Positions 35,359 to 63,605 of a stretch of 64,000 nt of DNA are shown piece after piece; position 1 is the stretch's first letter; every line of letters begins with the position of its first letter. The translations under genes were made by a program, and so were the position numbers. The DNA comes from Selaginella tamariscina (Eukaryota > Streptophyta > Lycopodiopsida > Selaginellales > Selaginellaceae): the NCBI GenBank assembly GCA_003024785.1, contig PUQB01000259.1, positions 163,592 to 227,591 on the forward strand. Reading direction: 5' to 3'. The notes beneath the pieces are model-generated. The model saw only the letters and a program-made list of their open reading frames with translations, made no database searches and was not told the origin of the DNA.

Positions 35359-36362
35359 GTTGATTAATCCTCCTGATGGAGAGAGATTGGGTCAGGTACA
35401 ACTGGTAATACAAGGTGGGATTTCTCCTTAGAAATGGAGAAGGTGTTGAGGGAACTTGGATTGTGGGAGTATGCGCAGATCTTGAAGGAAGAGAGCCGCA
35501 TGATGAGCAGTGTTTCACACTAGTTATGCTAATGGAAAAGGTGGATAAGCCGGAGATGGGATTTGTAGCGTATTCTGAGGAGAGGAAACTCCTTTTCACA
35601 GAGAAGCCTTGAAAAGGTTTTCCTGTTGCCGAGATCAGAAGGAGAGGTTAAGGCGGATAGATCTCACCTTACAGACTTCTTGAAAGAGGGGAAGCAGTAT
35701 ATAAGTAAGGTAGGTCTAAAGCTTTCCGATCTCGTGGAGGAGACGCAGTTGGCAGTGAACTTCATTGTCAATGCTTTTGAGTTTCGAACATCGCACATCA
35801 CGGCGTCAAACCCAGTGATGTCCTTGTATGATGGTTTGAAGGCAAAAAGGCCGGTGGGAGTGGCTCGTACTTAATGAAGAGGTTGAGAGAGCACTTATGC
35901 CATGCAGGAATTGGAGAAGAAAGGAGAGCCTTCATTAATGATGGCGTTTACGTGGGTATAGGCGATTGCAGATTATGTGCGCCTGCATGGAGAGCCGGCA
36001 GGGCCGGAAATTGTGGCTCGGATGAAACAGTTGAGGAAGGAGACAGAGCTGTTTCAGAAGAAGCAGGGGAAGCGGAAGGGATCTGAAGCTAAAGGGAAGA
36101 ATTAGAAGAGGACCTGCAAGGAGAGGAAGAGAAACAGGGAGAAAAGATGCACAAGAAGAAGAAGCCGAAGGTGGAGAAGCAGGCAACGGTGAAGAGGAAT
36201 ACAAGGTCGGGGGGCAAGACTAGGAAGCAGAAAGTGAGGGCGCAGGAAGAACCGGAGCAGAGAGTGGTAGTAGATTTGGATGATGAAGAGGATGAACAGT
36301 CAGGGGGTATGGTACAGGAAGATGAAGAATCATTGGAGCAAGGAGAAAAGGAAGAACCTAAG
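35359..36362 (+). other. 3' part of the Gypsy element with extra, unrecognised coding-like sequence
   Basis: Downstream of integrase there are open frames without known domains: one with EGEVKADRSHLTDFLKEGKQ and VGLKLSDLVEETQLAVNF (35626-35874), and one Lys/Glu-rich frame with RNTRSGGKTRKQKVRAQEEP and poly-acidic runs (36147 onward). Athila/Tat elements often carry an extra ORF here, but homology is unproven. The element is cut at 36362/36363, where the DNA transposon begins, and no 3' LTR is present in the window. Confidence 0.5.
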
Positions 36363-36389
36363 ATGCACGTTGTAACTAAAGTGGGCATG
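36363..36389 (+). repeat. Left terminal inverted repeat, copy I
   Basis: Pairs with 50984-51010 with two mismatches (positions 6 and 19 of the repeat). Sequence identical to 56879-56905. Confidence 0.8.
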
Positions 36390-36662
36390 ATACGTGAAAA
36401 TGGGAATATAAAATAAATTACTAATTAATACTTAAGTTTTAATTATTAATTAATCATTTAATTAATATGTAATTAAGCCTTAAATATTAATTAATTAATT
36501 AATTAATCCTTCAATAACCTTACTTAGTAAGGAATATTCCTAAAATATCTTAGAATATTCATATTATTCTAAAAATAGTTTACAATAATGAAGAAATACT
36601 ATCAAACATAATTACAAATGAAATCATTTTCTTATCAACATGTTAATTTTTTTATAAATACT
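36390..36662. other. Left subterminal region of the transposon
   Basis: AT-rich with repeated TTAATTAA words and GGAATATTCC / AGAATATTC palindromes near 36530-36575. It is conserved in copy II at 56906-57178. No gene. Confidence 0.6.
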
Positions 36663-37845
36663 TTCTTTCTATCATACAAAGAAATCTTTCATTTTGTCTA
36701 AATCATCACTCTCCGGATTAATCAAATCATTTTGGTCAATATCTTGATGTTGTTGCCACCACTTAACACTCTCACGAATGCAATTGGGAGTTGCCATCCT
36801 TGTTAATACATAAGATGTAATAAGACCAGGTCTGCATAAAGGCTCATCTAAAAACTGACGTTCCTTAAGAATAATATTATAAAGCGCCCGGTTGCTATCC
36901 TTCATTTTTAAAATTCAATATCACGAGAAAGAAAAGCTTCAGGAAATGTATGATACGGTGGATACTGCTCACAAAAATTTTCGAGATTCTTCTTTCTGAG
37001 GCACGTATCCAAGTAGTTCACTAGCTCATCCATGATATCGATATCAGAATATGGATCGAAAGTGATTGGATGAATACAAGCAATGTTTTGGTTGAGCATA
37101 GCCTTCTGAGGAGAGTCGTCTACTACTAAGATATGTGCATTCTTCGTTATCCTTAAGCGACTGATCTCCCCATGAGTCCCAATTATTCTTTCATTCTTGA
37201 AGAAGTATGGCTTGCTTTCCATTTCCTATATTGTGAAATTCGAGAGGTTTATAACACATTCGCTGGTCAAAAATCCAATCTTTACGAATCACCTCTTCTG
37301 CAACACTACAATGTTTCTTAAGTAAACTCAACAGCGGTGTTAAGTTATGAATCTGCATGCATGACCAAATCCCCACAAGCGCACCCATCTCCTTAAGCTT
37401 TTGAAAGAGACGATCCAACCCTGGACGAAAAATAATATCATATCGAAATTTACCATGACAAGGAATGAAATCTCCTTGTTTGATTTCTGTTTTTCTATCC
37501 TCGGGCCTTTGTCGATGAAGCAGAACACCATTGACATCCAACAACACAATATGGCCATGAGTAACATGAGATAGCGTTGCCTCTTGAATACTTTGCAAAT
37601 CACTTGTTTGCTCCCTTTCACATTTATCCGTTGCCACTTTCGTTGCCTATCCCTTCATCATTTAATTGTACATCATCCTTACAAGATTCAGATATTGCAT
37701 GCGCTGAAGAAACTGATTTCGGAACTGAAGCCAATAAAAATGATGATGCAAAAACTGAAGTGGCCCCCATGGTAACGATTTTGAGCTGCATTATTATCCA
37801 TTTCCTGCATGAACTCTGTCATTCTGACATGTGGCACAAGAAATT
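36663..37845 (-). pseudogene. FCP1-like HAD phosphatase, copy I, frames broken by indels
   Basis: The central frame encodes HIVLLDVNGVLLHRQRP (motif I, DxN variant seen in some plant FCP1-like HAD proteins), then FRPGLDRLFQKLKEMGALVG and WIFDQRMCYKPLEF. The next frame encodes ILVVDDSPQKA (motif IV acidic pair) and YSDIDIMDELVNYLDTCLRK. The last frame runs to a stop near 36663 and encodes IRESVKWWQQHQDIDQNDL. In the family, phosphate is transferred through the first Asp. Frame changes at about 37215 and 36906 and an indel near 37777 differ from copy II, so either the gene is dead or the assembly has errors. It lies downstream of, and in the same direction as, the ParB-like gene, with about 250 bp between. 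Confidence 0.7.
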
Positions 37846-38094
37846 GTCGCCAAACCCCTCTCTTACCTCATGGCAATGCTGAAAATCCATGTTCTCAATT
37901 ATTTCATTACATCTGCAAAATGATAATTAGCTGACCTTAAAATTATCAAGGTATATTATTTACCTTGTTAATGTGTGACCCATGTTTGAACTAAAAGCTT
38001 CATTAATCCTTGAGAATTTATTTTCTGTACAAATATAAAAGAAATATACAAAAATGCCTTATGTTACACTCATTTACAACTATTCATCACTCTA
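37846..38094. other. Intergenic DNA between phosphatase and ParB-like genes
   Basis: AT-rich spacer conserved in copy II (about 58365-58598), with no open frame of interest. It may contain a short upstream exon of the phosphatase gene (CCATGAG/GTAAGAG on the minus strand near 37868), which cannot be confirmed. Confidence 0.4.
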
Positions 38095-41000
38095 TCAATT
38101 CATTATCAATTCTTCTTCGCTATTACCTTCTGAATGAGGCGAAGAAGGTCTAAGCCGCTTGTGAGATGGTTCAAGATCTTCTGCATCTTCTATTGATGTT
38201 TCCATGGGTCCTGGAGTGTGCGAATGTTCTGTACTCCTCGAGATAACTTCCGGTCTAATATCTGATTGATGTTCGTTCTCAGACTCCGAGATTGAACCAG
38301 ATTCACCTTCAGAGCTATCGCACTTATCTGGAGGGAACTTTCTCAAATACGCCTTTATGGAATCGTTGGGGTACTCAGTTGAGACCCAATCTATCCACTT
38401 GTTCAGGTCCTCAACCATGGTCTTATCCTTCTCAACGGCAAACACACATGTATGCCGAAGGTAACACTCCTTCAAGACGGACCCCCTAGTGCAGTAGTCA
38501 AAAACCCACGCATCACTGTGAGGACCCCTGATCAAGTTGACGATGCTCCGTGCCGCTTGACTTGTAATGTTTGGATAACGTACATTGCCGAATACGTCAC
38601 TCATACCTATCGGTGTATCGGATGGAGGTTCAGGGCCGTTGGAGTGCAAACAGATGCCTGGCCAGTCATTTGGAAGCTTGAAATTGTTTGGCGCATTCCT
38701 AACAACCAAGTGAACAACAGTATCAATGCACTTGGGATTAGCATCGTTCATATAAAATCCTGTCCAACGATGTCTATTTCTTCTTGGCGAAGGCGAAGGC
38801 AAAAGTATCGGTGACATGAGCAAGAATCAAGAAATAAATACCTGAAAAAGTAGGTATCATGAAGAGCGCAAGCATGAATTCAATAATAAATACCTTCTAT
38901 GTATATGCTTGCACGGCTAAGTTTCTCCACCAGATCCTCTAGTGCCCTATCTGTCGAAAGATTTTTTGACACCCGCCGATCCATCACGAACAATTGAAAC
39001 GGTTTCCTACAAGCAGTGATGTTACCCCATAAAGTCTCCGAATCTAACAACAAACATCTGTAGGGCTTGTCGTGATTCGTAGCATCCTCCTTTATAAGGT
39101 TCAATTCGGTTCTCCGCTGCTGAAGGACTGCCATAAGAGAAGGCGTCATCCCAATGTTCTCCTTTTTGGCGTTGGCGTGCAATAGATTCTTGCCTAGATC
39201 TTCCGATTGGTTCACCCATTCGACAAGCATATCATCGTTCGTCACATGCAAATATTTGCTAACCTCTTCATATGTTGAAGTCGAGGTCCAACCCAGTTTG
39301 TGGCAGTGTATTCCCAACCACTCCTTGAAATGCCTGACCGTCTTCAACTCCATTGCCTTGAGATGAAAAGGAGAGGTTGGGCTGCTGTTATTAATTTGTA
39401 GTTTGCCATCGATCACCAAATCAGCCAAGACTTCCATCTCCTCCATCGTTGTTCCATTTAAAGGCTTCAACCATGTGAGCTTGAAATCGTTGTCTACATC
39501 CTTTGTAGATTGAACAGACTTAGCCTTCGGCGTCTTACTGGGTTTCTTTGCAGACTTTTCTGAGGGCTCCCCTTCACTTGTCTGCTTCTTCTTCAGTGTT
39601 CCTTTTGAAAAGGATTCCATAATCCCCAACCATTTGGCAAAGATCCTATCTTCGGGCAAGAAATCAACATCATCAGAAATGATGTTTCCTTCCCGCCCAC
39701 CTGGGCAAAATCAACTGCTGCAATTTCTTCAACTCTCTGAGGAAAAAGACAGATTAATATACCGGCGAGATAAATCCCGCCCAAACAATTTGCTTACCCG
39801 GTATTCCGCAGATTGTGTATTCCCTGCGGTAGCTCTTTGTGGTCGCTGAAGAGATTCCCACACGGCTCGCGTGTGTTTAAACTTCTCCCAATTTTGCTGT
39901 TGTAGTGGTTGGTGTCGGCAGCGCCCATTCCGCCGATAACTTATGGTACTGCTCGATTGTGAGATTCGGCTTAGCTAAAAACGCGATCTTTTTGTCAGCT
40001 TCTACGGGTAGCTCGGAAAGTTTTTTGCCATCGTTCCTTTTTGTGTTCACGAGAAGTCGTTGGGCTGCCGTTATTGTGTGCTGGCCACTAATGATGTAGT
40101 ACTTGATAGATCTTTTATTCTCCGTCTGAATCTTCAATGAGTTGTTCTGGTGTTGTGATCCAGACTTTGTCAGCACCTTCCTTCTTTCATAGTGGACACA
40201 AAACAGCATTATGGGAACGGTATAAGAATTTGTCGTCCTTCATTTCTCCATGAGCTCAGCTAAGTGGCCTGTAATTGAAGTTTGGGTTGACGCTGCAATA
40301 TTTAACCTACAAGGATAAATCTTATCATCCAACATCATTTCCTTGTGACTTATTGCAGCATGAGATGCCACAGTGCAGCTGACAAACGATTGATGATTTT
40401 CTTTTGCGATCCGAATCAACATGTGTGATCCCGACTGCAGCTGTTCTAGTTCTCGGCACACTCCTCCAGCCCGAAGCTTCCTAAGCAAATTGAACGTGAT
40501 CTGTAGAGAACCTGAGACCGAGCCACCTTCTCAATCTCCCTTATGATGTCGCTGTGTTCTTCTTCAATGTAAGAGGGAAGATTGCTCCACTTGCTGATTT
40601 TCTGTATTGTGAAGCAATATCTCCTGACAATACACCTACTCGATGAGTCTGAAGATCTTCGAAGTAACATCCAGATGGATCCCTCCATAGATGGGCTTTC
40701 GTTGAGTTGAAGAAGAACTCCAAGGTCAACATCATTAGTGAACACGTGAACATCATTATCCACAAGTCGACAAACCACCCGAGATTAATGTTGTAACTGA
40801 CGACCTCTGGATCCGAGAACGTGACATTGGATGGACAAGGCATATCTGTCGAGCATCGTCCAATCTGGGTTCGCAGCCTGCTTTCGGGTGCTTGACTAGC
40901 GAATCTACTTTCCATTGTTTTGCTTGTCCATGAGATGTGACAGAGGTTAATTTGACAGCAACCATGGTTGCTCCAATGCGCTTCCATTTATCTTAAAATA

Positions 41001-41157
41001 TGGCCAAGTTGATTCCAAATCCCCCTGCCCATCTCTCTCCTGCTCTTGTCTTTAATGTCACTTCAATTCCACATCTGAATACAAAAATGATTAGTTCAAG
41101 TATCGAGTATAACAGATTTTATTTTAATTCTTACCCAGAATTTGACGACGACTCCAT
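38095..41157 (-). pseudogene. ParB-like plus methyltransferase-like protein gene, copy I (four exons, indel-broken)
   Basis: Coding exons inferred from GT-AG sites shared with copy II: 41157-41135, 41074-39798, 39734-38894 and 38841-38095. Exon 2 holds the ParB-like box: YYIISGQHTITAAQRLL at about 40060-40105 matches the GxHRxxA motif of ParB/Srx-fold proteins. Exon 3 contains a Lys/Ser/Pro-rich linker, a globular part (KEWLGIHCHKLGWTSTSTYE) and CLLLDSETLWGN, which could be a degenerate DPPY motif. Exon 4 contains AWVFDYCTRGSVLKECYL then CVFAVEKD, resembling motif I of amino-methyltransferases, followed by an acidic Ser/Glu-rich tail. This domain order is that of bacterial and phage ParB-methylases, but key catalytic residues are not conserved. 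Indels in exon 2 break the frame in this copy. Confidence 0.6.
39735..39797 (-). other. Intron of the ParB-like gene carrying one palindrome-array unit
   Basis: On the minus strand it begins GTAAGCAAATTG and ends TTTTTCCTCAGAG. Inside lies GGGCGGGATTTATCTCGCC, a slightly diverged unit of the 18-bp palindrome that forms the arrays. The same intron and unit occur in copy II (60237-60299). Confidence 0.7.
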
Positions 41158-41482
41158 ACTAATGACTCGATCTCCTTGTTTGATCAAATCGTCCTTCTGC
41201 AAAATAATACACTATAAATATAAATTATATAAAAACGCACACACACTTGTATAAACCCGAATACAAAAATAATACACAGAGAGAAGTAGACGTAATTAAC
41301 TGTCCGAAGCTCACATTTGGTTAGTGCAAAAGAAAGATAACATTTCGTTTTAGAACCACCACAAATGTGAGCTCTGGACAGTTTTACATAGATTCCTAGC
41401 TTTTACTCGAAATATTATGATAAGATGATAAAAGTAAATAAAATGAGATATGCAACTTATATATACTAATACACATATATAT
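41158..41482. promoter_or_regulatory. Upstream region between the ParB-like gene and palindrome array A
   Basis: AT-rich, about 325 bp, conserved in copy II (61695-62030). It includes CACATTTG / CAAATGTG inverted words around AGAACCACCACAAATGTGAG (41351-41370) that can pair with AGCTCACATTTG at 41308. A 3' splice site (TTTTGCAG) near 41199 suggests a further upstream non-coding exon. No TATA box is certain. Confidence 0.35.
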
Positions 41483-43005
41483 TCACATGGAAGGTGCGGC
41501 GGGATTAATCTCGCCACCCCTTCAATGCCTCCTGAAAGAGTGGGCGGGATTAATCTCGCCACCTTTCTGGAGGCTTGAACGGGAGTGCGGAATTAATCTT
41601 GCCACCCTTCTCGGTCTCAGAGAGAACTGGGCAGGATTTATTTCTCACACCCCTTCAGTGACTCCAGAAAGGAGGCGGGATTAATCTCGCCCACCATGTA
41701 AGGGATGGTTAAATGAATTCGCCACCCTTCCCAGTCCCTCCATTGGTATGTTGTAAACCTTCTACGTCTAGACAGAAACGTTTGGGATTGGTCCAACTCA
41801 CCAATGGAGGAAAAAGGGAAGGGTGGCGAGATTCATTTCTCAACAGGCATTGAAGACTCGGCGGGATTAATCCGCCGCCCAGGGCCTTCACTCGATCCCT
41901 ATGCGGCGGGATTAATCCCGCCGGACGCCAATTCCCTGCGGGAATCGGGCGGGATTAATTCCGCCGCCTAGGCACTTCATGCAGGCCAATGGCGGCGGGA
42001 TAAATCCCGCCCGATTTGCACAGGGCATTGGCGTTCGGCGGGATTAATCCCGCTCCTAGGCCCTTCACTCGGGCCTTAGTCGGCGGGATTAATCCCGCCG
42101 AACGCCAATGCCCTGTGCGAAATCTTGCGGGATTAATCCCGCCGCCTAGGCCCTTCAGGCAGGCCAATGGCGGCGGGATAAATCCCGCCCGATTCCGCGC
42201 AGGGCATGCGTACGCGGCGGGATTAATCCCACCACCCTTCTCGGTTCCCTCCATTGGTATTTTGTAAACCTTCTCCGTCTCAGACAGAGTTAGGCGGGAT
42301 TGATTCAACATACCAATGGGGTAATGAAGGTTCGGAGATTAATCTCGCCACCGGGTAATGAAGGTTCGGAGGCTTATCCCGCCGCCCTCTTGTAAATCAT
42401 GCGCTCACACATATATTGGCTGCGGCATTTTTGAACAGGGATGGGTGGGGGCGGGATTAATCCCGCTGCCCAGGGAATTCACGCAGGACATGAACGGCGG
42501 GATTAATCCCGCCACCCTCCGCGAAGGGCATGAGCGTGGGGCCGGATTAATCCCGGCGTTCATGTCCTGCGTGAATTCCCTGGGCGGTGGGATTAATCCC
42601 GCCGCTCTACGACAAACCGAAGAGCGGCGGGATTAATCCCGCCGCCCATGGCCTGCGTGAGGGGCCTCGGCGGCGGGATTAATCCCGCCGCCCATTCCTT
42701 GTAAATGCCCTGTGCGGAATCCGGCGGATTAATCCCGCCCATTAGAACCTTCACACAGGCCATTGCCGGTGAGATAAATCCCGCCGCATTCCGCGCAGGG
42801 CATGGATGAGCGGCGGGATTAATCCGCCGCTCTTCGGTTTGTCGTAGAGCGGGATTAATCCCGCCGCCATAGCCTGCGTGAAGGGCCTCGGCGGCGGGAT
42901 TAATCCCGCCGCTCACCCATGCCTGAAGGGCCTCGGCGGCGGGATTAATCCCGCCGCCATGGCCCAAATATAGCGGCGGGATTAATCCCGCCGCTCGAGG
43001 GGCTT
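41483..43005. repeat. Palindrome array A, about 30 units of GGCGGGATTAATCCCGCC
   Basis: The 18-bp unit is its own reverse complement and is often extended by GC on each side. Units recur about every 44 bp, for example near 41903, 41948, 41992, 42035, 42080, 42126, 42170 and 42213. Variants include GGGATAAATCCC and outer degenerate units (41500-41840). Spacers are GC-rich and related to each other (CCTAGGCCCTTCA, GGCCAATG, GAATTCCCTG). Open frames through the array only repeat GGINPA or AGLIPP and are artefacts. The array lies 5' of the ParB-like gene. Its function is unknown; binding sites for the element's own protein are plausible. Confidence 0.9.
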
Positions 43006-43688
43006 AGCGAGATAAAACACACACATATATATATGTGTGTGTGTATATATATGTATGTATGTATGTATGTATAGGAGTGTACGTGTGTGTGCAAGAGATA
43101 GATAAATAAATAAAATTATACAGTACTGGTACACCTAATATATGTGTACATAGGTATATATATGTGTGTATATGTATATCGTGTGTATGCGTGTGAGCGA
43201 AACAAATAAAATCATACAGATAAACAAACACACACACACACACATATATATACACAGGAGTGTGCGTGTGTGTGCGAAAGATAAAACTAAATAAATAAAA
43301 TTATACAGATAAACACACACATATATATGTGTGTATATAGATATATAATCTATAGAGAAAGAGAGAGAGTCTGTGAATATATAAGCATATATATAAACTA
43401 GTGTTGTATGTATGTATATATGTATATAGGTATATATATATGTGTATATGTATATTGTGTGTATGTGTGTGAGCGAAACAAATAAAATCATACAGATAAA
43501 CAAACACACACACACACACATATACACACAGGAGTGTGCGTGTGTGTGCGAGAGATAAAACTAATAAATAAATAAAATTATACAGAAAAACACACACATA
43601 TATATATGTGTGTATATAGATATATAACCCATATGAATATATAAGCATATATATACTAGTGTTGTATACTATTTGTTAATATGCATTG

Positions 43689-43731
<43 letters not shown>

Positions 43732-44040
43732 GTGTGTTGTGTGTAAAGCAAGATCAATAAAAAAAAATTTACAGATACTGGTACACATAATATATGTATG
43801 TATATATGTATATAGGTATATATATATATATGTGTATATGTATATCGTGTGTATGCGTGTGTGAGCGAAAAAATAAAATCATACAGATAAACAAAACACA
43901 CCCACACACATATACATACACAGGAGTGTGCGTGTGTGTGCGAGAGATAAAACTAATAAATAAAATTATACGCACACTCCTATACATATATACATACATA
44001 CACACACACACACACACAGATCTCACCTGTGTGCACAGCC
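43006..44040. repeat. Minisatellite field of (CA/TG)n and (TA)n blocks
   Basis: Tandem blocks contain GGAGTGTGCGTGTGTGTGCG, GAGATAAAACTAATAAATAA and AATTATACAGATAAACACAC at about 43074, 43257, 43530 and 43921, so the period is irregular at about 180-390 bp. ORFs here (His-Thr and Val-Cys runs) are artefacts. It is conserved at 63606-64000 in copy II. Confidence 0.85.
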
Positions 44041-45165
44041 GCCGCCGCCGATTTCACAGCCGCCGCCTCTTGAAACCCTAAGAATATACCTAAACCCTAA
44101 AGGAATTAAATATATATATCAACCCTAATAGAATATTCCTTCTGAGAATATACTTAAACCCTAAAAAGAATAAAATATAGATTCGCCCTAAACGAATATT
44201 CTTTCATTATATTATTAGCGCGTGCGCGTGCGTGGTGTATCACATACACCTCAAAAATATAAATCATGCAGGGATTTAACATGTGTGTGTCCATGAGAGT
44301 GTTAAAGTTTCATGTGTATCAATACACATACACATTGCATATATTAATACACATAATATATACATACACACGTGTATACACACAGACATACACACATATT
44401 ACATGGGTTTAGGGTTTAGGGTTTAGGGTTTTGGATTTAGGATGGATCATGCATGGTGTGTATGTATGAGAGAAGAGAGAGTGTTGAAAAATTATTTTTG
44501 TACACATTGCATATATTAGTACACATATATACTTACACATATTATACACAGATATACATACATAGTATATGAGAGAAGAGAGACAGTACATATTATGGAT
44601 CATGCATGGTGTGTATTATACACACAGACATACATACATATTAGTACATAATATTAGAGAGACCGAGTACATATTATAGATCATGCATGGTGTGTATGTT
44701 TGAGAGAAGAGAGACAGTACATATTAACATGGATCATGCATGGTGTGTATGTATGAGAGAAGACAGAAAGTACACATATATACATACAGAGTACACATAT
44801 ATACATGCACACGTGTATACACACAGACATACATACATATTACATGAGTAAATTCATTGTGTTACATATTAGGGTTTAGGGTTTAGGGTTTAGGGTTTGC
44901 TCCCAACAAGCTTAATATAAATATTACACATGTAAATTCAATGTGTTACATACAGTCACACAGATTGAGTACATATATCATACATGCGTTGAACATGATT
45001 TTCAATAAAGAAGCAACCTATTTCTTCAGTTTGGTTTAGGGTTGTGCATGTGTGTGCATATGTGTTTTTGTAAGTTCTTGTAATGCGTGTGTAAATTTAT
45101 GATTGTGTTTATATATGTGTGCAAAACAAACATCGAATAATTAAGAAATAAAATTAATAAACACA
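44041..45165. repeat. Mixed repeats with interstitial telomere-like (TTTAGGG)n
   Basis: GCCGCCGCC at 44040-44060 is followed by AAACCCTAA-type words, then TTTAGGG runs at about 44408-44431 and 44869-44898. Copies of GGATCATGCATGGTGTGTAT followed by GAGAGAAGAGAG occur at about 44443, 44596, 44675 and 44729. No gene. Confidence 0.75.
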
Positions 45166-45171
45166 CTAGGA

Positions 45172-45561
45172 ACATATTTTAAATTATACATAATAATATA
45201 TGATTTTATCTAATATATAGCCATATATAGTTTTAATAATATATATTAATTTAATATTGATAAAAAGGTTTAACATTGAAATATTCTTGAAATAATAAGA
45301 AATTAATTGAGAAAATCCCATTAATATATACAAATGTAAATTAAGTACTCAAATAATTAACTAAATTAATTATCATAATCATGTTTAATATTGGAATATT
45401 CTTGGAATAATAAGAAAATAATAAAGAATATCCCATTAATATAAAGAAGATTAATTACTCAAGTAATTAAGGAAATGATATTAATATATATATTATTAAA
45501 ACTATATATGACTATATATTAGATAAAATGATGTATTATTATGTATAATTTAAAATATGTT
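45172..45561. repeat. MITE-like hairpin, about 85-bp inverted repeats
   Basis: 45172-45255 (GAACATATTTTAAATTATAC onward) pairs with the reverse complement of 45478-45561 with few mismatches, around a 220-bp AT-rich loop. A partial third copy of the arm is at about 45834-45870. No coding content. It could be a MITE nested in the large transposon or a foldback formed from local tandem repeats. Confidence 0.6.
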
Positions 45562-46144
45562 CATAGTGTGTATTAATTTAATATTGATAATAAGGTTTAA
45601 CACATGAATATTCTTGAAATAATAACAAATTAATTGAGAAAATCCCATTAATATATACAAATGTAGAATAATTACTGCAATAATTAAGAACAAGACTAAT
45701 TTAATTATGATAATCAGGTTTAATATTAGAATATTCTTCAAATATTAATAAAATATTAAAGAATATCCCATTGATACTAGGAAATGAAAACTAAATACTC
45801 GAGTAATTAAGAAAATAATAATAATAAACAGACTATGAATATATTTTAAATGATACATAATAATATATCAATTTATTTATTGTATAAGTATATATTTATA
45901 TATATATATATAATATAAATATACTTGAATACTAAGAATGTAGAATATAGTCTAAAATTTCGTAATATTAAACAGCTTGAATCACTTGAATAACATTAAA
46001 TGCAATTTTAAAATACTCATTGGAACTGGAGAGTATATATGTCAGAGTGTCGGATATTTGTGTCAACTCATCTTAAATTTTATTTTCTGTTTTTTTAAAA
46101 AATTTGAATTTCTGACATATGTATTGTCGGTCTGACATGTAAAT
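45562..46144. other. AT-rich DNA with repeated GGTTTAATATT...GAATATTCTT blocks
   Basis: Blocks with AATATTCTTGAAATAATAA and AATCCCATTAATATA recur near 45270, 45385, 45593 and 45718, overlapping the hairpin. No gene. Confidence 0.6.
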
Positions 46145-46329
46145 TTGAAAATGCATTTAATTTCCCACTCAAATTCAGATCTGGTTCTTTCTCCGGCAAG
46201 GGTTTCTTCATTTCTGTATTTTTCACTCTTTAGATCTTCTTTTTTCTTCATAGTGATCATCTCAGGAGCGAGATTAAATTGGGTGCTATTCTTTATAGGA
46301 AAGCACGGCGCCTTCAGTGCTGTTTACAA
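46145..46329 (+). promoter_or_regulatory. Possible 5' non-coding exon of the DUF7869 gene
   Basis: A pyrimidine-rich leader-like segment ends in a strong donor (TTTACAA/GTAAGTATT at 46329/46330). The next good acceptor is TTTATGTGCAG at 47375-47385, just before the DUF7869 start. The joined frame does not continue the protein, so if real this is 5' UTR. Palindrome array B would then be intronic. Evidence is splice-site appearance only. Confidence 0.3.
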
Positions 46330-46494
46330 GTAAGTATTATAAACAAATTTAAAAATACTTATTAAGATTCACTCTCTTACATTCTCTCTTAAAATTACAA
46401 TTTAGGGGTTTAGAAATGCATTAGGATTATAATATATTCCGTTAGGGATTTATCACGTTTAAATATCCTTTTAACTTAATATTCTAGGTTAACC

Positions 46495-47236
46495 GGGGCG
46501 GCGGGATTAATCCGGCCATTTCTTTTTCGCCTCTTTGAAGAAGTGGCGGGATTAATCCCGCCACCATCTCCCGGGCAATGCTTCTCCGCCACTGAAAAAG
46601 AGTGGCGGGATTAATCCCGTCGATAACCTTCTCAACTGATGAAGAGTTACCAGAATTTATTAGAAAGAGTTGTCGGCGGGATTAATCCCGCCAACCATTT
46701 TAGGAGGCAGGGAAGGGGTGGCGGGATTAATCTCGCCACCACTTCCCTGTTTTAAAGATTTGGGGACAGGATTTATCCCGAGATCTCTTTGAAATCATAG
46801 TTTTGGAGAGAGTTATGTGGGTTTAATCCCGCCACCCATTCCCCGTCGTAAGAATTGTGGGCGGGATTAATCCCGCCTTGGACTCCCTCCGACAAGGAAG
46901 AGCCGGCGGGATTAATCCCGCCGCCTCTTCCTCCGACGAGGAAGGGAGTCCGGCGGGATTAATCCCGCCGACTCTCTCCGAGGTTGAGTCGGCGCGGGAT
47001 TAATCCCGCCGGACTCCCTTCCTCGTCGGAGAGAGTCGGCGGGATTAATCCCGCCGGACTCCCCCCGAGGAGGAAGAGGCGGCGGGATTAATCCCGCCGG
47101 CTCTTCCTTGTCGGAGGGAGTCCAAGGCGGGATTAATCCCGCCGACTCTCTCCGAAGGGGTTGAGTCGGCGGCGGGATTAATCCCGCCGACCGTTCCTCG
47201 TCGGAGGGATTCGTGGGCGGGATTAATCCCGCCCAT
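46495..47236. repeat. Palindrome array B, about 16 units
   Basis: Same GGCGGGATTAATCCCGCC core as array A, with different spacers (CTCTCCGA, CTTCCTCGTCGG, GACTCCCT). Units near 46860, 46905, 46951, 46992, 47037, 47080, 47125, 47168 and 47215 are about 43-46 bp apart. Earlier units (46497-46830) are more degenerate. The array ends about 155 bp upstream of the DUF7869 gene start. Confidence 0.9.
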
Positions 47237-47390
47237 CAGTTGTATTAATCAAACATGAGATATTATCTCTAAACATAATTATGTATTATTGCATATGCAT
47301 ATTATTAAGTAACCGTAATTCAGATTTCTTAAAAATATTGCATAAACAGATATCATAAATAATACAATTATTTATGTGCAGGACAATATG

Positions 47391-50300
47391 TTTAATACTG
47401 GAGATAAAGTATGTCTTCTTCGGAACAACGAGATAGTTGGCACTGGAACTGTGGAAGTTCGAGATAATAATGCATCATGTCACAATATTTCCCAAGGATC
47501 TTGTGTGTACGTATGGGTGAACACCATTTCAAGCATGTTGAGGTTCTGGGAATGGAATTTGAGGAGGGTTCTCCTGTATTGTGGAATTTGGATGAAGTCA
47601 AGGCTGACACAAATATGCAGAGTCACAAACAAATAGTAGCACGAGTTTACCAGATGATGGCTTGCCTGCTGTAATGGATGAGGTGATTCTCTTTCTTCGT
47701 GAGATTGAAGTCGGAAGAGGCATCATCACAGCTATAAATCCAATGGAAGCAGTGTCAGAAGAGAAACTAGGGTCCGACTTCGTGGGTGTAGTTGTGACAG
47801 AGGTTTCACCTAATGGCACATTGTATCCTGGATCCCTCGTGAGGTGGCGAACATCTGAATTAAGACGGCAAGATGGTTCAACATATTCTGGGTTGGATTT
47901 CAATAATAACAACCCGGAAGAACAACTCATATTTGAAGAGGTTCCTTGCATTGGTCCTATTGTAAGAAAAAGGCGATTCATGGGTTGTAGATCTTCCCCT
48001 GCAAGTTTCAGCAAGAGGGTAAAGATGGATCCTACATCTTCCGAAAGTGTTACGAGCATTTCCACGATTGACTGTTGCAAGAAGAAGTGTTGTCAGATGG
48101 CAGACCGGAATGAAATTACCCAATGTAGACATGTCTTTCGTATGCTCACCCAAAAGCAAAGGCATGAGTTTGTATATGCTGCACTAACTGGGTGTATTGA
48201 TGGAATGGCCTCGGACACAGGTTATCAGAGTACATCCATGGTATTTAATAAGGTGGCCATCTGCTTCAAAGCTTGGTACAGTATATACGGGATCCCAAAG
48301 ACCACGTTCTACCGTCGGAGGGATGAGTGGCTAGATGGAGCGCGAACCTCAGTTCATGGGAACACTGGCTTGGTCAAAACCCGCTCTCACATCATGGCAG
48401 CCATAGAGATACTCAAGGCTTTTGTGGAAGCAAATGCAGACAGGATGCCTCACAAATGCCGAACCACAAATGCAGGGGTCAGGGAAAATCTCAAGGTTTT
48501 ACCTTCAATCTACACTCAATTGAAACTGTGTGAACATGTGAACAAGTGCCTCAGTTTGATGGGGCTCCAAGCAATCTGCACTGGTACCTTCAACAACATA
48601 TGGAATACTCATTTTAAGGATGTGGAGATTGCAAAACACTCTAGCTTTTCTAAGTGTGACACTTGTACATCATTGAAGGCTGCAGAGGCTTGTGCAAAAA
48701 CCTTGGTGGAGATCACTACCATTCAAAGGAAGATGGAGGCCCACATGATTGCACAACAAACTTGTCGGTCTCAGTACTATGCACACCGCATGCTTTCTGT
48801 ATCACGCCCATCAGAGTACCTGTGCTTGATCCATGACAAGATGGATCATTCAAAGACCAGCATTCCAAAGCTCTTTGCAACACCAAAGTGCCTTGGAAAT
48901 GTCATGAAACTTCCGATTTCTTTAACAGGTGTGCTAACACATGGACACGGTTGTGAGTCATATGGACACTTTTCACTTCCACATTGGTCTAGCGACTCCA
49001 ATTTCACTATTGGGTCGTTAGCCATGTGTTTCAGAAACCTTGAAGCCCACTCACAGACAAGTCCTATCAGTGATCTCAAAGTGAAGAAACAACACCTTCA
49101 ACCTTTACATAATGCTCTCATGAACACGTCTGCACTTGAGGCTACTTGGGAATATGAGAGGCATTGTCAGCAACCTGCACAAAAAACAGATGGCCCTGTT
49201 GAGAGTTCAGGTTCAGTGGAGGGATCTAGCTCAAATAGTGTACATGTGTCCTCAACATCAAATAAGCTTCCTCGTCATTTGCTTTTACAGATGGATAATT
49301 GTGCAGGCGAGAACAAAAATAGGTAAATCATTTTACTTAAGGGTTTCTCAAGCTCATACTTACTTTTATTTTCTAGATATGTGCTAGCATACTTGTCAAT
49401 GCTTGTTGCCAAAGGTGTGTTTGAAACAATCACGCTCAGTTTCCTTATGGTTGGTCACACTCATGAAGATATTGATGCGTTCTTCAGCAAGGTCTCCAAC
49501 TCTACAAAAAGGACAAGTGCACTTACCTTACCGCATATGATGAATCTTTTTGAAAATTGCATCTCCAAAAAAAGTTGTGCTTTGCTTGTGACTGAGGTGC
49601 CAGACTTCAAAAAATTTCTCAAGGAGTATATAAAAGAAGGGAGTGATTCTTTAGTTGGTCACCTTGTGCCGCTACAATTCTTTTTCTCCATACGAGATGG
49701 TATACCTATTATGCAGTACAAGTTACGGCCATCAGAGCAGGAGTGGTTACCGAAAGAGGGCTTAATGCTCTTCAAAAGTGGAGAGGATGGAAAGCCACTT
49801 CTCCCAGAAGGACAACCAGACCCTATTCCATTGAGTGCCCAGCTCAAGGAACAAGAGGTTATTATTGATGGCATCAAAAAATATGTGGCATGGGTTCAAA
49901 AATCGATGCCAAAGAATTCTGATAAGGCAACTGGTTACTCAGAACTATATAAGCATGTGGTCAACTATTGGGAGACTGTTGTTCGAGAGTTGGAAGGGCC
50001 TACTGTCACAAGTACAGAATTGCAACACCCTTTCTGGCCTAAAACAAGGTGGCGAGAGGAGATTGAAATGACATCACTGAGCATAAACGACATAGAAGCC
50101 AGTAGTGATGTGGAAGTGCAAACCCCACACTTTGTTGGACAAAGGAACCAAAAACCTAAAGCATACTTTGATTGCTGCAAGGATCTTCAAAAACTAATGA
50201 TGGTTCTCATTACTCCAGATGCGTCATATAATCAGCCTATTTGGATGGGTCAAATTATCGACACACCTGAAGTAATCACAAAAAATAGTATTGTTAAGGT

Positions 50301-50505
50301 TGCATGGTTCAAACCACAAAAAAGGCGACACGAGAAGGAGAGCGAAAGATATAATGGATGCCTAGAGAAAACATGGTCTCCCAATCAAAAAGACCCAGCA
50401 TGTTTTATAAATGTTAAATCCATTCGATATGGGTGGATGTCAAGAAGCGTTGATAAAGTCACGATTAACAAAACTGCAAGGGAATGTATGTTTTCTGAAG
50501 CTTAA
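47391..50505 (+). CDS. DUF7869-type (DDE/D RNase H-like) transposase
   Basis: Two main exons join at AAAAATAG/GTAAATC (49322) and TTTTCTAG/ATATGTG (49377), in phase. The N-terminus (MFNTGDKVCLLRNNEIVGTG) and GEHHFKHVEVLGMEFEEGSP precede a Cys cluster CCKKKCC, a helical DNA-binding-like part (IYGIPKTTFYRRRDEWLDG) and a CDTC motif. Candidate catalytic acids lie in CLIHDKMDHSKT, LLLQMDNCAGENKNR and FLMVGHTHEDIDAFF, the signature of the plant and protist DUF7869 family. The spacing suits a DDE/D transposase cutting the element's TIRs. Frame changes near 47513 and 47655 imply indels; the 554-codon and 374-codon frames are otherwise open. The decayed relative at 1676-4085 shows that the family has moved before. 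Confidence 0.75.
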
Positions 50506-50983
50506 AGCAATTACAAAATTATAAAATAATATATTTAATATTCATAATTATTATAAACTCTTTAATAATAGTACCAAATTGTATACTTAACTATATAAAT
50601 TTAAAAAATGATATGGAAGATTGACTATATTATTATAGGATTTTATATATATATTATTACTACTACAAATTTTTAATTAATAATGTTATATTTAAATATT
50701 AATATTTTAATAACAACATCAATATTTATATAATGTACCTCTTATGCTCTTCCTTAATTGTTATATTAGGCAATATATTATATAATTTAATACATTCTAC
50801 TTTTATAATGTTATTAATTTTTGTTCAATGAATGCTATAATTTATTAAAGGGTAGAATACAAAATAGAATATTCTAAAGAATATTCTCTTTTCAAACATA
50901 TATTCTAAAGAATATTCCTTTAATATTAGAAAATGCTAATTAAATAGTTAAAATTGCTAATTATTAGGAAATGGGACTATAGC
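50506..50983. other. Right subterminal region of the transposon
   Basis: AT-rich, no gene. AGAATATTC / GAATATTCT palindromes at 50867-50925 mirror those in the left subterminal region. Confidence 0.55.
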
Positions 50984-51010
50984 CATGCCCATTTTAGTTA
51001 CAACTTGCAT
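50984..51010 (-). repeat. Right terminal inverted repeat, copy I
   Basis: CATGCCCATTTTAGTTACAA followed by CTTGCAT, the inverted match of 36363-36389 with two mismatches. Confidence 0.75.
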
Positions 51011-56878: not shown

Positions 56879-56905
56879 ATGCACGTTGTAACTAAAGTGG
56901 GCATG
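56879..56905 (+). repeat. Left terminal inverted repeat, copy II
   Basis: Identical to 36363-36389. The preceding bases (GAATAAA) differ from those before copy I (ACCTAAG), which fixes the element boundary. Confidence 0.85.
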
Positions 56906-57166
56906 ATACGTGAAAATGGGAATATAAAATAAATTACTAATTAATACTTAAGTTTTAATTATTAATTAATCATTTAATTAATATGTAATTAAGCCTTAAA
57001 TATTAATTAATTAATTAATTAATCCTTCAATAACCTTACTTAGTAAGGAATATTCCTAAAATATCTTAGAATATTCATATTATTCTAAAAATAGTTTACA
57101 ATAATGAAGAAATACTATCAAACATAATTACAAATGAAATCATTTTCTTATCAACATGTTAATTTT

Positions 57167-58342
57167 TTATAAATACTTTCTTTCTATCATACAAAGAAAT
57201 CTTTTCATTTTGTCTAAATCATCACTCTCCGGATTAATCAAATCATTTTGGTCAATATCTTGATGTTGTTGCCACCACTTAACACTCTCACGAATGCAAT
57301 TGGGAGTTGCCATCCTTGTTAATACATAAGATGTGATAAGAGAAGGTCTGCATAAAGGCTCATCTAAAAACTGACGTTCCTTAAGAATAATATTATAAAG
57401 CGCCCGGTTGCTATCCTTCATTTTATAAAATTCAATATCACGAGAAAGAAAAGCTTCAGGAAATGTATGATACGGTGGATACTGCTCACAAAAATTTTCG
57501 AGATTCTTCTTTCTGAGGCACGTATCCAAGTAGTTCACTAGCTCATCCATGATATCGGTATCAGAATATGGATCGAAAGTGATTGGATGAATACAAGCAA
57601 TGTTTTGGTTGAGCATAGCCTTCTGAGGAGAGTCGTCTACTACTAATCTGTGTTCTTCATTATCCTTAAGCGACTGATCTCCCCATGAGTCCCAATTATT
57701 CTTTCATTCTTGAAGAAGTATGGCTTGCTTTCCTTTCTTATATTGTGAAATTCGAGAGGTTTATGACACATTCGCTGGTCAAAAATCCAATCTTTACGAA
57801 TCACCTCTTCTGCAACACTACAATGTTTCTTAAGTAAATTCAACAGCGGTGTTAAGTTATGAATCTGCATGCATGACCAAATCCCCACAAGCGCACCCAT
57901 CTCCTTAAGCTTTTGAAAGAGACGATCCAACCCTGGACGAAAAATAATATCATATCGAAATTTACCATGACAAGGAATGAAATCTCCTTGTTTGATTTCT
58001 TTTTCTATCCTCGGGCCTTTGTCGATGAAGCAGAACACCATTGACATCCAACAACACAATATGGCCATGAGTAACATGAGATAGCGTTGCCTCTTGAATA
58101 CTTTGCAAATCACTTGTTTGCTCCCTTTCACATTTATCCGTTGCCACTATCTCGTTGCCTATCCCTTCATCATTTAATTGTACATCATCCTTACAAGATT
58201 CAGATATTGCATGCGCTGAAGAAATTGATTTCGGAACTGAAGCCAATAAAAATGATGATGAAGTGGCCCCCATGGTAACGATGTTTTGAGCTGCATTATT
58301 ATCCATTTCCTGCATGAACTCTGTCATTCTGACATGTGGCAC
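57167..58342 (-). pseudogene. FCP1-like HAD phosphatase, copy II
   Basis: The same protein family as 36663-37845. Here the N-terminal frame is longer and open (VRMTEFMQEMDNNAAQNIVT to LLDVNGVLLHRQRPEDRK), then an indel near 58003 shifts it. The middle frame continues to KNERIIGTHGEISRLR, and a deletion near 57645 destroys the motif IV region that is readable in copy I. The C-terminal frame (57167-57616) is open through a junction that is broken in copy I. Each copy therefore has lesions the other lacks. An ancestral open gene is likely, but neither visible copy is intact. The upstream start is uncertain because the frame is open past the first ATG. Confidence 0.7.
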
Positions 58343-58598
58343 AAGAAATTGTCGCCAAACCCCTCTCTTACCTCATGGCAATGCTGAAAATCCATGTTCT
58401 CAATTATTTCATTACATCTGCAAAATGATAATTAGCTGACCTTAAAATTATCAAGGTATATTATTTACCTTGTTAATGTGTGACCCATGTTTGAACTAAA
58501 AGCTTCATTAATCCTTGAGAATTTATTTTCTGTACAAATATAAAAGAAATATACAAAAATGCCTTATGTTACACTCATTTACAACTATTTTCACTCTA

Positions 58599-61500
58599 TC
58601 AATTCATTATCAATTCTTCTTCGCTATTACCTTCTGAGTGAGGCGAAGAAGGTCTAAGCCGCTTGTGAGATGGTTCAAGATCTTCTGCATCTTCTATTGA
58701 TGTTTCCATGGGTCCTGGAGTGTGCGAATGTTCTGTACTCCTCGAGATAACTTCCGGTCTAATATCTGATTGAGTTCGTTCTCAGACTCCGAGATTGAAC
58801 CAGATTCACCTTCAGAGCTATCGCACTTATCTGGAGGGAACTTTCTCAAATACGCCTTTATGGATCGTTGGGGTACTCAGTTGAGACCCAATCTATCCAC
58901 TTGTTCAGGTCCTCAACCATGGTCTTATCCTTTTCAACGGCAAACACACATGTATGCCGAAGGTAACACTCCTTCAAGACGGACCCCCTAGTGCAGTAGT
59001 CAAAAACCCACGCATCACTGTGAGGACCCCTGATCAAGTTGACGATGCTCCGTGCCGCTTGACTTGTAATGTTTGGATAACGTACATTGCCGAATACGTC
59101 ACTCATACCTATCGGTGTATCGGATGGAGGTTCAGGGCCGTTGGAGTGCAAACAGATGCCTGGCCAGTCATTTGGAAGCTTGAAATTGTTTGGCGCATTC
59201 CTAACAACCAAGTGAACAACGTATCAATGCACTTGGGATTAGCATCGTTCATATAAAATCCTGTCCAACGATGTCTATTCTTCTTGGCGAAGGCGAAGGC
59301 AAAAGTATCGGTGACATGAGCAAGAATCAAGAAATAAATACCTGAAAAAGTAGGTATCAGTGAAGAGCGCAAGCATGAATTCAATAATAAATACCTTCTA
59401 TGTATATGCTTGCACGGCTAAGTTTCTCCACCAGATCCTCTAGTGCCCTATCTGTCGAAAGATTTTTTGACACCCGCCGATCCATCACGAACAATTGAAA
59501 CGGTTTCCTACAAGCAGTGATGTTACCCCATAAAGTCTCCGAATCTAACAACAAACATCTGTAGGGCTTGTCGTGATTCGTAGCATCCTCCTTTATAAGG
59601 TTCAATTCGGTTCTCCGCTGCTGAAGGACTGCCATAAGAGAAGGCGTCATCCCAATGTTCTCCTTTTTGGCGTTGGCGTGCAATAGATTCTTGCCTAGAT
59701 CTTCCGATTGGTTCACCCATTCGACAAGCATATCATCGTTCGTCACATGCAAATATTTGCTGACCTCTTCATATGTTGAAGTCGAGGTCCAACCCAGTTT
59801 GTGGCAGTGTATTCCCAACCACTCCTTGAAATGCCTGACCGTCTTCAACTCCATTGCCTTGAGATGAAAAGGAGAGGTTGGGCTGCTGTTATTAATTTGT
59901 AGTTTGCCATCGATCACCAAATCAGCCAAGACTTCCATCTCCTCCATCGTTGTTCCATTTAAAGGCTTCAACCATGTGAGCTTGAAATCGTTGTCTACAT
60001 CCTTTGTAGATTGAACAGACTTAGCCTTCGGCGTCTTACTGGGTTTCTTTGCAGACTTTTCTGAGGGCTCCCCTTCACTTGTCTGCTTCTTCTTCAGTGT
60101 TCCTTTTGAAAAGGATTCCATAATCCCCAACCATTTGGCAAAGATCCTATCTTCGGGGCAAGAAATCAACATCATCAGAAATGATGTTTCCTTCCCGCCC
60201 ACCTGGGCAAAATCAACTGCTGCAATTTCTTCAACTCTCTGAGGAAAAAGACAGATTAATATACCGGCGAGATAAATCCCGCCCAAACAATTTGCTTACC
60301 CGGTATTCCGCAGATTGTGTATTCCTGCGGTAGCTCTTTGTGGTCGCTGAAGAGATTCCCACACGGCTCGCGTGTGTTTAAACTTCTCCCATATTTTGCT
60401 GTTGTAGTGGTTGGTGTCGGCAGCGTCCCATTCCGCCGATAACTTATGGTACTGCTCGATTGTGAGATTCGGCTTAGCTAAAAACGCCGATCTTTTTGTC
60501 AGCTTCTCACGGGTATGCTCGGAAAGTTTTGTTGCCATCGTTCCTTTGTTGTGTTCATCGAGAAGTCGTTGGGCTGCCGTTATTGTGTGCTGGCCACTAA
60601 TGATGTAGTACTTGATAGATTTTTATTCTCCGTCTGAATCTTCATGAGTTGTTCTGGTGTTGTGATCCAGACTTTGTCAGCGCCCTTCCTTCTTTCATAG
60701 TATGGACACAAAACAGCATTATGTGGAACGGTATAAGAATTGTCGTCCTTCATCTTCTCCATGAGCTCAGCTACACGTTCCTGGTTGAGTGGCCTGTAAT
60801 TGAAGTTTGGGTTGACGCTGCAATATTTAACCCTACAAGGATAAATCTTATCATCCAACATCATTTCCTTGTGACTTATTGCAGCATGAGATGCCACAGG
60901 TGCAGCTGACAAAACGATTGATGATTTTCTTTTGCGATCCGAATCAACATGTGTGATCCCCGACTGCAGCTGTTCTAGTGTTCTCGGTACACTCTCCAGC
61001 TCCCAAAGCTTCCTAAGCAAATTGAACGTGATCTGTAGAGAACCTGAGACCGAGCCACCTCTCAATCTCCTTATGATGTCGCTGTGTTCTTCTTCAATGT
61101 GAAGAGGGAAGATTGCTCCACTTGCTGATTTTCTGTATTGTGAAGCAATATCTCCTGACAATACACCTACTCGATGAGTCTGAAGATTTCGAAGTAGACA
61201 TCCAGATGGATCCCCTCCATAGATGGGCTTTCGTTGAGTTGAAGAAGAACTCCAAGGTCAACATCATTAGTGAACACGTGAACGTCATTATCCACAAGTC
61301 GACAAAACCACCCGAAATTAATGTTGTAACTGACGACCTCTGGATCCGAGAACGTGACATTGGATGGAACAAGGCATAGTGTCGAGCATCGTCCAATCTG
61401 GGTTCGCAGCCTGCTTTCGGGTGCTTGACTAGCGAATCTACTTTCCATTGTTTTGCTTGTCCATGAGATGTGACAGAGGTTAATTTGACAGCAGCCATGG

Positions 61501-61694
61501 TTGCTCCAATGCGCTTCCCATTTATCTTAAAATATGGCCAAGTTGATTCCAGAATCCCCCTGCCCATCTCTTCTCCTGCTCTTGTCTTTAATGTCACCTC
61601 AATTCCACATCTGAATACAAAAATGATTAGTTCAAGTATCCGAGTATAACAGATTTTATTTTAATTCTTACCCAGAATTTGACGACGACTCCAT
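58599..61694 (-). pseudogene. ParB-like plus methyltransferase-like protein gene, copy II (four exons)
   Basis: Coding exons are 61694-61672, 61610-60300, 60236-59395 and 59341-58599, with introns of 61, 63 and 53 bp, about 970 codons in all. Exon 1-2 join: MESSSNSG then CGIEVTLKTRAG. Exon 2 carries the start of the ParB-like fold (NYRPLNQERVAELMEKM at about 60790, then VPHNAVLCPYYERRK). The GxHxxxA box follows at about 60570-60610, after a one-base loss. Exon 3 is a clean 280-codon frame. The exon 3-4 join (YIEG/IYFLILAHVTDTFAFAFA) keeps frame and yields a hydrophobic strand as expected in a Rossmann methyltransferase. Exon 4 has VFDYCTRGSVLKE and FAVEKD. Indels in exons 2 and 4 interrupt the frame. 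Catalytic activity cannot be assumed. Confidence 0.62.
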
Positions 61695-62030
61695 ACTAAT
61701 GACTCGATCTCCTTGTTTGATCAAATCGTCCTTCTGCAAAATAATACACTATAATATAAATTATATAAAAACGCACACACACTTGTATAAACCCGAATAT
61801 ACAAAAATAATACACAGAGAGAAGTAGACGTAATTAACTGTCCGAAGCTCACATTTGTGTTAGTGCAAAAGAAAGATAACATTTCGTTTTAGAACCACCA
61901 CAAATGTGAGCTCTGGACAGTTTTACATAGATTCCTAGCTTTTACTCGAAATATTATGATAAGATGATAAAAGTAAATAAAATGAGATATGCAACTTATA
62001 TATACTAATACACATATATATTCACATGGA

Positions 62031-63605
62031 AGGTGCGGCGGGATTAATCTCGCCACCCCTTCAATGCCTCCTGAAAGAGTGGGCGGGATTAATCTCGCCA
62101 CCTTTCTGGAGGCCTTGAACGGGAGTGCGGAATTAATCTTGCCACCCTTCTCGGTCTCAGAGAGAACTGGGCAGGATTTATTTCTCACACCCCTTCAGTG
62201 ACTCCAGAAAGGAGGCGGGATTAATCTCGCCCACCATGTAAGGATGGTTAAATGAATTTCCCACCCTTCCCAATTCTCCCATTGGTATGTTGAAAACCTT
62301 CTACGTCTCAGACAGAAACGTTTGGGATTGGTCCGACTCACCAATGGAGAAAAAAGGAAGGGTGGCGGATTCATTCCTCCAACAGGCATTGAAGACTCGG
62401 CGGGATTAATCCCGCCGCCAGGGCCTTCACTCGGTCCCTATGCGGCGGGATTAATCCCGCCGGACGCCAATTCCCTGCGCGGAATCGGGCGGGATTAATC
62501 CCGCCGCCTAGGCACTTCAGGCAGGCCAATGGCGGCGGGATAAATCCCGCCCGATTCCGCGCAGGGAATTGGCGTCCGGCGGGATTAATCCCGCCTCCCA
62601 GGCCCTTCACTCGGGCCTTAGTCGGCGGGATTAATCCCGCCGAACGCCAATGCCCTGTGCGAAATCTTGCGGGATTAATCCCGCCGCCTAGGCCCTTCAG
62701 GCAGGCCAATGGCGGCGGGATAAATCCCGCCCGATTCCGCGCAGGGCATGCGTACGCGGCGGGATTAATCCCGCCCACCATGTAAGGGATGGTGAAATTA
62801 ATCCCACCACCCTTCTCAGTTCCCTCCATTGGTATTTTGTAAACCTTCTCCGTCTCAGACAGAGTTAGTCGGGATTGATTCAACATACCAATGGAGGAAA
62901 AAAAGAAGGTGGCGGGATTAATCCCGCCACCGGGTAATGAAGGTTCGGAGAGACTAATCCCGCCGCCCTCTCGTAAATCATGCGCTCACACATATATATT
63001 GGCTGCGGCATTTTGAACAGGGATGGGTGGGGGCGGGATTAATCCCGCCGCTTATATCCTGCGGAAGTGCCTGAGCGGCGGGATTAATCCCGCCGCCCTC
63101 CGCGAAGGGCATGAGCGTGGGGCCGGATTAATCCCGCCGTTCATGTCCTGCGTGAATTCCCTGGGCGGCGGGATTAATCCCGCCGCCTTAGCGCAGGACA
63201 TGTCATGCAGGCTCTTCGGTTAGCCTTCCGTGCAGGATCTTTCATGCAGGCTCTTCGGTTAGCCTCATGAGCGGCGGGATTAATCCCGCCGCCCATCCCT
63301 GTAAATGCCCTGCGCGGAATCCGGCGGGATTAATCCCGCCCATTAGGGCCTTCACACAGGCCATTGCCGGCGAGATAAATCCCGCCGCATTCCGCGCAGG
63401 GCATGGGTGAGCGGCGGGATTAATCCCGCCGAGGCCCCTCACAGGCCATGGGCGGCGGGATTAATCCCGCCGCTCTTCGGTTTGTCGTAGAGCGGCGGGA
63501 TTAATCCCGCCGCCCATAGCCTGCGTGAAGGGCCTCGGCGGCGGGATTAATCCCGCCGCCAGGCCAACCATATAGCGGCGGGATTAATCCCGCCGCTCGA
63601 GGCTT
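62031..63605. repeat. Palindrome array A of copy II
   Basis: The same GGCGGGATTAATCCCGCC units and spacers as 41483-43005, with about 50 bp net length difference. It has more perfect units at 62400-62780 and a rearranged stretch at 63185-63270 in which GCAGGCTCTTCGGTTAGCC is duplicated. Array units therefore turn over while gene sequence stays nearly constant. Confidence 0.9.

Follow-up and report, generated by a model that had tools for sequence, protein, structure and literature searches.

The window analysed here, a 64,000-nucleotide stretch of the Selaginella tamariscina genome (contig PUQB01000259.1), contains a large element, present in one complete copy and one left half, that is probably an autonomous, recently active, Sola-like cut-and-paste plant transposon of 14–15 kb with accessory genes and operators of its own (Table 1). 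The terminal inverted repeats of copy 1, described in an earlier note on this DNA as 27-bp matching termini, are identical at 25 of 27 positions, with 2 mismatches, and a search with a 26-bp terminal-repeat pattern (up to 3 mismatches) identifies three matches in the window, at 36364, 50984 and 56880, and none in 100 shuffles. Copy 2 aligns with the first 6,993 bases of copy 1 at 94.8% identity and shares its left base exactly, as the same note had claimed for this boundary. The genes of the left half lie on the minus strand and those of the right half on the plus strand, so that the divergent gene sets proposed in that note are borne out as well.

Evidence of transposition comes from the sequences directly outside the ends, ATGCA...TGCAT. 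The analysis covered 21 end pairs, namely the window copy, 10 copies with their flanks and the flanks of 10 more. Perfect identity of 4-bp flanks at this fixed offset is found in 9 of the 21 pairs, compared with 7 of 420 mismatched-partner pairs, in agreement with element limits that had been placed to the base. The nine perfect duplications represent eight sequences (ATTA twice, ACTT, TAGA, CGTT, CTAT, ATGT, AAGA and ATAA); in three further copies (L019, L029 and L035) the flanks are identical only with a 1-bp slip, a class that has no control, and the duplication of the window copy itself is imperfect (TAAG/TAAT). Two copies (L045/L046 and L023/L024) are nested inside other copies of the element. 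The joined flanks of L045/L046 match window positions 36513–36710 at 99.5% across the junction, with ATAA present once, and thus represent a clean empty site; those of L023/L024 match 47203–47414 at 89% with 12 gap positions. For part of the copies, the 4-bp duplications and the nested empty site thus establish that insertion was precise and duplicated 4 bp of the target. The TGCA present at either end might itself have been taken for the duplication, but it is the sequences beyond it that are repeated, and this reading was abandoned. The joined flanks of L019 (similar to many places at 68–87%) and L021 (one place, 74%) were set aside as simple or old repeats. The target duplication of Kolobok and piggyBac elements is TTAA, and none of the nine perfect duplications is TTAA, which appears in one pair only with a 1-bp slip.

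A search of the window's own assembly (300,702,823 bases in 1,391 contigs) with the inner part of the terminal repeat yields 1,490 forward and 1,448 reverse exact matches, with 0 for the reversed control. Among the first 100 matches listed, 44 fall into convergent pairs (22 pairs at 8–20 kb, 18 of these at 13–16 kb), whereas 4 neighbours in divergent and 4 in same-strand orientation occur at 8–20 kb; a G-type end is combined with an A-type end in 20 of the 22 convergent pairs, and 56 of the 100 ends have no partner. Were all ends parts of complete elements, the assembly would hold at most about 1,470 copies, amounting to 21 Mb or 7% of its length; given the unpaired ends, complete elements are presumably fewer. 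Ten further complete copies were fetched, picked from the listed matches by end spacing and hence biased towards complete ones. Pieces of the transposase, orphan and phosphatase-like genes align in all ten, and palindromes are present in both halves of all ten, which supports the earlier proposal of one bounded element moving as a unit. Other termini, or the three genes apart from each other, would speak against such a unit; neither is seen in the ten copies, but this leaves genes outside end pairs uncounted across the genome, and 56 of the 100 listed ends are without a partner.

The copies differ in age. Mid-element intergenic divergence from the window copy ranges from 2 in 1,335 bases (L025) to 88 in 793 (L023), and the left ~210 bases differ from the window copy by 0–2, so that some copies are very recent. 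Because the middle differs more than the left ~210 bases, the middle of the element evolves faster or recombines. Between the left halves of copies 1 and 2 there are few substitutions outside the arrays; numerous differences are indels of 1 bp or fall within the arrays, and many of the indels are concentrated at 39.8–41.1 kb. Given that some other copies have these frames open, the frame-breaking indels are probably sequencing errors of this contig, although other copies likewise have broken frames. A decayed relic, L051 (C633:246900–251400), contains the left genes in the same order, filled with stops and accompanied by decayed palindromes. Its protein pieces, up to 74% identical, at first suggested a diverged living lineage, which is ruled out by the stops and decayed sites throughout; this old relic indicates that the left gene set was not recently acquired.

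The right-half gene encodes a protein that matches the Pfam family DUF7869 (PF25273) with E-values of 1.4e-12 and 2.9e-25. The predicted model of a relative, P0001, has an RNase H-like fold resembling integrases and transposases, with conserved acidic residues D169/D172, D327 and D367/D369. The earlier suggestion of a DDE-type transposase is thus supported by the family match and by this model, which is best compatible with a DDD-type RNase H-like enzyme whose catalytic three would be among the conserved aspartates. The reading frame of copy 1 is broken near 47.5–47.6 kb and open there in L019; across copies, the ratio of non-synonymous to synonymous substitution rates (dN/dS) of the main exon is ~0.16. 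The assembly contains at least 300 DUF7869 matches (the best 150 of 4,249 first-look candidates were scored, irrespective of position relative to end pairs), compared with none in 14 control genomes; in viral contigs, none of 161 pattern matches was confirmed. No literature on DUF7869 was found in coverage that lacks most subscription journals. Unclassified DUF7869 proteins of a moss (P0016, Physcomitrium), a liverwort (P0028, Riccia) and two bivalves (P0029, Saccostrea; P0030, Mytilus), compared at the protein level, share with the element's protein this domain and its conserved motifs D.MD, QxDN...NKN and HTHEDxD. With DUF7869 tied to defined ends and 4-bp duplications, such proteins in moss, liverwort and bivalves can be read as likely transposases. 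Relatives P0029, P0030, P0036 and P0037 are DUF7869 proteins of three bivalves and one hemichordate, and these animal proteins are possibly unrecognised transposases.

Members of the Sola superfamily have 4-bp target duplications, a DDD transposase and variable inverted repeats; some exceed 15 kb and they are present in moss, according to the accessible portions of two articles (PMC10741241, PMC9033089), the first of which gives a range of 11–1124 bp for the terminal repeats. The same portions mention no phosphatase-like or orphan genes and no palindrome arrays for Sola1 of the moss Physcomitrella (PMC10741241, PMC9033089). The element resembles this description in its 4-bp duplications with the nested empty site, in the DDD type predicted from the model of P0001, and in its 27-bp terminal repeats, which fall within the Sola range. 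Given the 4-bp duplications, the DDD transposase and the occurrence in moss, the element fits the broad DDE class and, on these features, appears most like the Sola superfamily. The literature coverage noted above yielded no description of an element, whether Sola or DUF7869, that has such accessory genes or palindrome arrays. The En/Spm (CACTA) element of maize has repeated subterminal motifs bound by TNPA, and 3-bp duplications. It is likewise a large plant element with two products, one in which a protein of the element binds short, repeated sites, but the motifs are subterminal there and mid-element, beside gene starts, here; En/Spm also differs in its transposase domain and in having 3-bp rather than 4-bp duplications.

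The element contains a pair of arrays of the 18-bp palindrome GGCGGGATTAATCCCGCC, one beside each gene set. The window contains 68 sites with up to 3 mismatches, all within the two copies (shuffled expectation 0.00), so that the operator-like arrays noticed earlier are confirmed as arrays. In the assembly, GGCGGGATTAATCCCGCC occurs exactly 27,128 times, compared with 0 for the control. Divided by ~1,470 end pairs, this makes ~18 per element; the window copy has 18 exact sites and the ten others have 3 to 28. The 100 exact palindromes listed are all on contig C1 and clustered, by eye many of them in or beside stretches bounded by element ends; some (near 130.1 kb and at 1,809.6–1,814.0 kb) lie away from any exact end in the list. 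A survey of 12 copies, one of them cut, covers 448 sites (273 left, 175 right) that deviate from the palindrome at no more than 5 positions. The commonest spacings are 44, 45 and 46 bp (77, 94 and 55 cases), and the 18 positions are conserved at 0.81–0.99, with at most 0.54 bits at flanking positions. This arrangement matches that expected of self-operators, which the arrays probably are. The earlier note left it open whether the accessory proteins mark or protect element DNA or control expression; given the positions of the arrays, control seems more likely.

An alternative is that the arrays are passive, with replication slippage and gene conversion having multiplied and inverted their palindromic repeats. 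The number of sites with up to 2 mismatches varies from 13 to 44 among the 11 complete copies (L023, with 13 sites, has 2,500 N), and the spacers are duplicated and recur in inverted order, as would be expected. Nevertheless, all 11 complete copies have the same 18-bp word next to each of the two divergent gene blocks while the spacers change, and nine of them retain the lone palindrome in the orphan-gene intron with no more than 2 mismatches (in L013 it has 3, and L021 has no site there even when 5 are allowed), which makes this explanation quite unlikely. The arrays might also act as RNA. The right array lies in what is probably a 5' intron of the transposase gene, and transcripts of its palindromes and inverted spacers could form long double-stranded RNA, whose dicing would silence the element or related ones; spacers do recur in inverted order (e.g., 78 nt, 99% complementary). 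Folding of the right array is indeed strong: its minimum free energy is -541.7, whereas 20 shuffled versions average -296.1 (z -26.6). Folding of this kind would be expected of any array of palindromes, however, and the left array, upstream of the orphan gene, may be untranscribed. Among the 448 sites, 192 are consensus, 255 broken and 1 an alternative perfect palindrome, so that a paired change preserves pairing in only 1 of 256 deviating palindromes; a role in RNA thus appears improbable.

The orphan gene is a real gene, at least in part, as indicated by codon-position bias and dN/dS. Changes at the three codon positions number 26/29/82 in the third exon (dN/dS ~0.21) and 105/108/173 in the large exon (~0.56); the last exon has 16 synonymous and 57 non-synonymous changes. 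Its protein was labelled ParB/methylase-like by eye in the earlier note, and this label found no support. Pfam, NCBIfam, PHROGs, the PDB and phage genomes contain nothing that credibly matches it, and neither does a set of 5.8 billion proteins searched with the third and large exons (word-sharing candidates, E-value 0.001); in the first four of these, no ParB/Srx domain model or structure matches. The joined exons, searched for kinship with amino-methyltransferases (N6/N4), match nothing in Pfam, and in the PDB only designed dTor repeat proteins (6e-7 over 39 residues; 0.00012 in another PDB search), which were dropped as chance or composition. Also dropped, as below cut-off or of unknown function, were the Pfam rows IL31 (E-value 0.12), PH_BUD3_C (0.097) and DUF6942 (0.48) and PHROG 21535 (0.22), and, as chance, eight phage rows at 1 or worse; one phage row, H2 (E-value 1), turned out to be an SbcC-like ATPase. 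The structure that AlphaFold predicts for the large exon carries no information (pLDDT, the predicted local distance difference test, 30.3), which leaves some room for a divergent ParB fold. The catalytic motifs of amino-methylases are DPPY and DPF.GSG, and the corresponding positions read, by eye, MDRR and DYCTRGS, so that the protein, if methylase-derived, would be at most a dead enzyme.

These results bear on the possibility that the orphan protein is a ParB-like or methylase-like marker of DNA, binding the palindromes as ParB binds parS sites and thereby protecting, marking or clustering the DNA of the element. By eye, the VNPNFNYRPLNQERVAELMEKMKDD...YYIISGQHTITAAQRLL stretch of the large exon resembles ParB N-terminal domains, the last exons are ordered like a permuted amino-methylase, and the palindromic sites form regular arrays. 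The absence of a database match, the uninformative model and the altered catalytic positions count against it; the ParB likeness is a lead obtained by eye, the methylase likeness a weaker one, and such a marker seems unlikely. Still less do we favour a centromere-like or operator system in which a ParB-like, methylase-derived dead protein would spread from the ~27,000 palindromes, couple copies, mark DNA and titrate expression. No relevant title or abstract combining ParB and a methyltransferase with a plant DNA transposon was found in the literature searched.

The remaining accessory protein matches Pfam NIF (PF03031) with E-values of 4.8e-5 in copy 2 and 5.1e-9 in copy L017; the score of 36.4 bits exceeds the curated cut-off of 21.8, in support of the FCP1-like assignment made earlier. 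The catalytic motif of FCP1/NIF phosphatases is DxDx, which is absent from the copies read: these contain LLDVNGVLL, where, by eye, the first catalytic aspartate is retained and the second is asparagine. Because the motif is DVNG, phosphatase activity is doubtful. The literature searched contains nothing that links an NLI interacting factor with a transposase and terminal inverted repeats.

A self-regulated Sola-like transposon could work as follows. The DUF7869 protein would bind the 27-bp ends, excise the element and insert it at a staggered cut of 4 bp. The arrays would be operators for a dimeric element-made protein, either the transposase or the orphan protein, and expression or assembly of protein–DNA complexes would respond to the amount of that protein relative to all sites; the phosphatase-like and orphan proteins, in their separate minus-strand block, would be accessory. 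Several observations weigh against this reading. No duplication is present in 8 of 21 end pairs even when a 1-bp slip is allowed; such pairs could represent recombination, old insertions or ends that were paired wrongly. Selection counts, each based on few changes, point to weak or absent selection in the large (0.56) and last (1.14) orphan exons, the second transposase exon (0.71) and the phosphatase-like gene (0.73). The choice of the 448 sites by resemblance inflates their conservation, gene conversion could hold sites alike without selection, and the strong folding of the right array leaves room for a role in the transcript.

By the end-count estimate, a single large DNA transposon, most of whose proteins lack a named family, may make up as much as ~7% of a plant genome. 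The 27,128 identical palindromes could provide an example of copy-number sensing: provided that a single protein of the element binds them, they might titrate that protein genome-wide.

Table 1. Features of the element in the window (window coordinates)
Feature	Position	Strand	Basis or remarks
Whole transposon, copy 1, 14,648 bp	36363..51010	.	Terminal repeats; ends common to 10 further copies of 13.8–15.0 kb
Target-duplication flank of copy 1, TAAG	36359..36362	+	Right counterpart TAAT at 51011–51014, 3/4 equal
Left terminal inverted repeat, 27 bp, G-type end	36363..36389	+	Inner pattern recurs genome-wide
Phosphatase-like (FCP1/NIF-like) gene, limits approximate	36675..37860	-	Pfam NIF; indels break frame in copy 1
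Orphan accessory gene, at least 4 exons	38095..41157	-	Open frames in copies; splice sites by eye
Orphan gene, large exon	near 39.8–41.1 kb	-	Next exons ~38880–39730 and 38095–38830
Lone palindrome in orphan-gene intron	39764..39781	.	
Left palindrome array, upstream of orphan gene start	41498..42992	.	GGCGGGATTAATCCCGCC, mostly 43–46 bp apart
Probable 5' intron of transposase gene, holds right array	46330..47381	+	Splice sites by eye
Right palindrome array, upstream of transposase start	46500..47233	.	
Transposase gene with DUF7869 domain	47388..50505	+	Pfam, intron (49323–49376), dN/dS, fold of relative P0001
Right terminal inverted repeat, 27 bp, A-type end	50984..51010	-	Inner pattern recurs genome-wide
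Copy 2, left half only, ends at window edge	56879..64000	+	Alignment, terminal repeat

Elsewhere in the window, positions 12437–13585 encode an Armadillo-repeat protein with DUF7032, which we take to be a plant-type host gene. To the left of copy 1, the region 32288–34112 contains retroelement remains (RT_RNaseH, E-value 2.2e-27; RVT_1, 0.00037, below cut-off). The flanks of copy 1 are dissimilar, the left one purine-rich and the right one AT-rich, so that this copy may lie at a rearranged site. Within the element, AT-rich inverted repeats of 86–99 nt are present mid-element at 45161–45912, and TTTAGGG tracts are found near 44410, which, like the Armadillo-repeat gene, speak for a plant as host.
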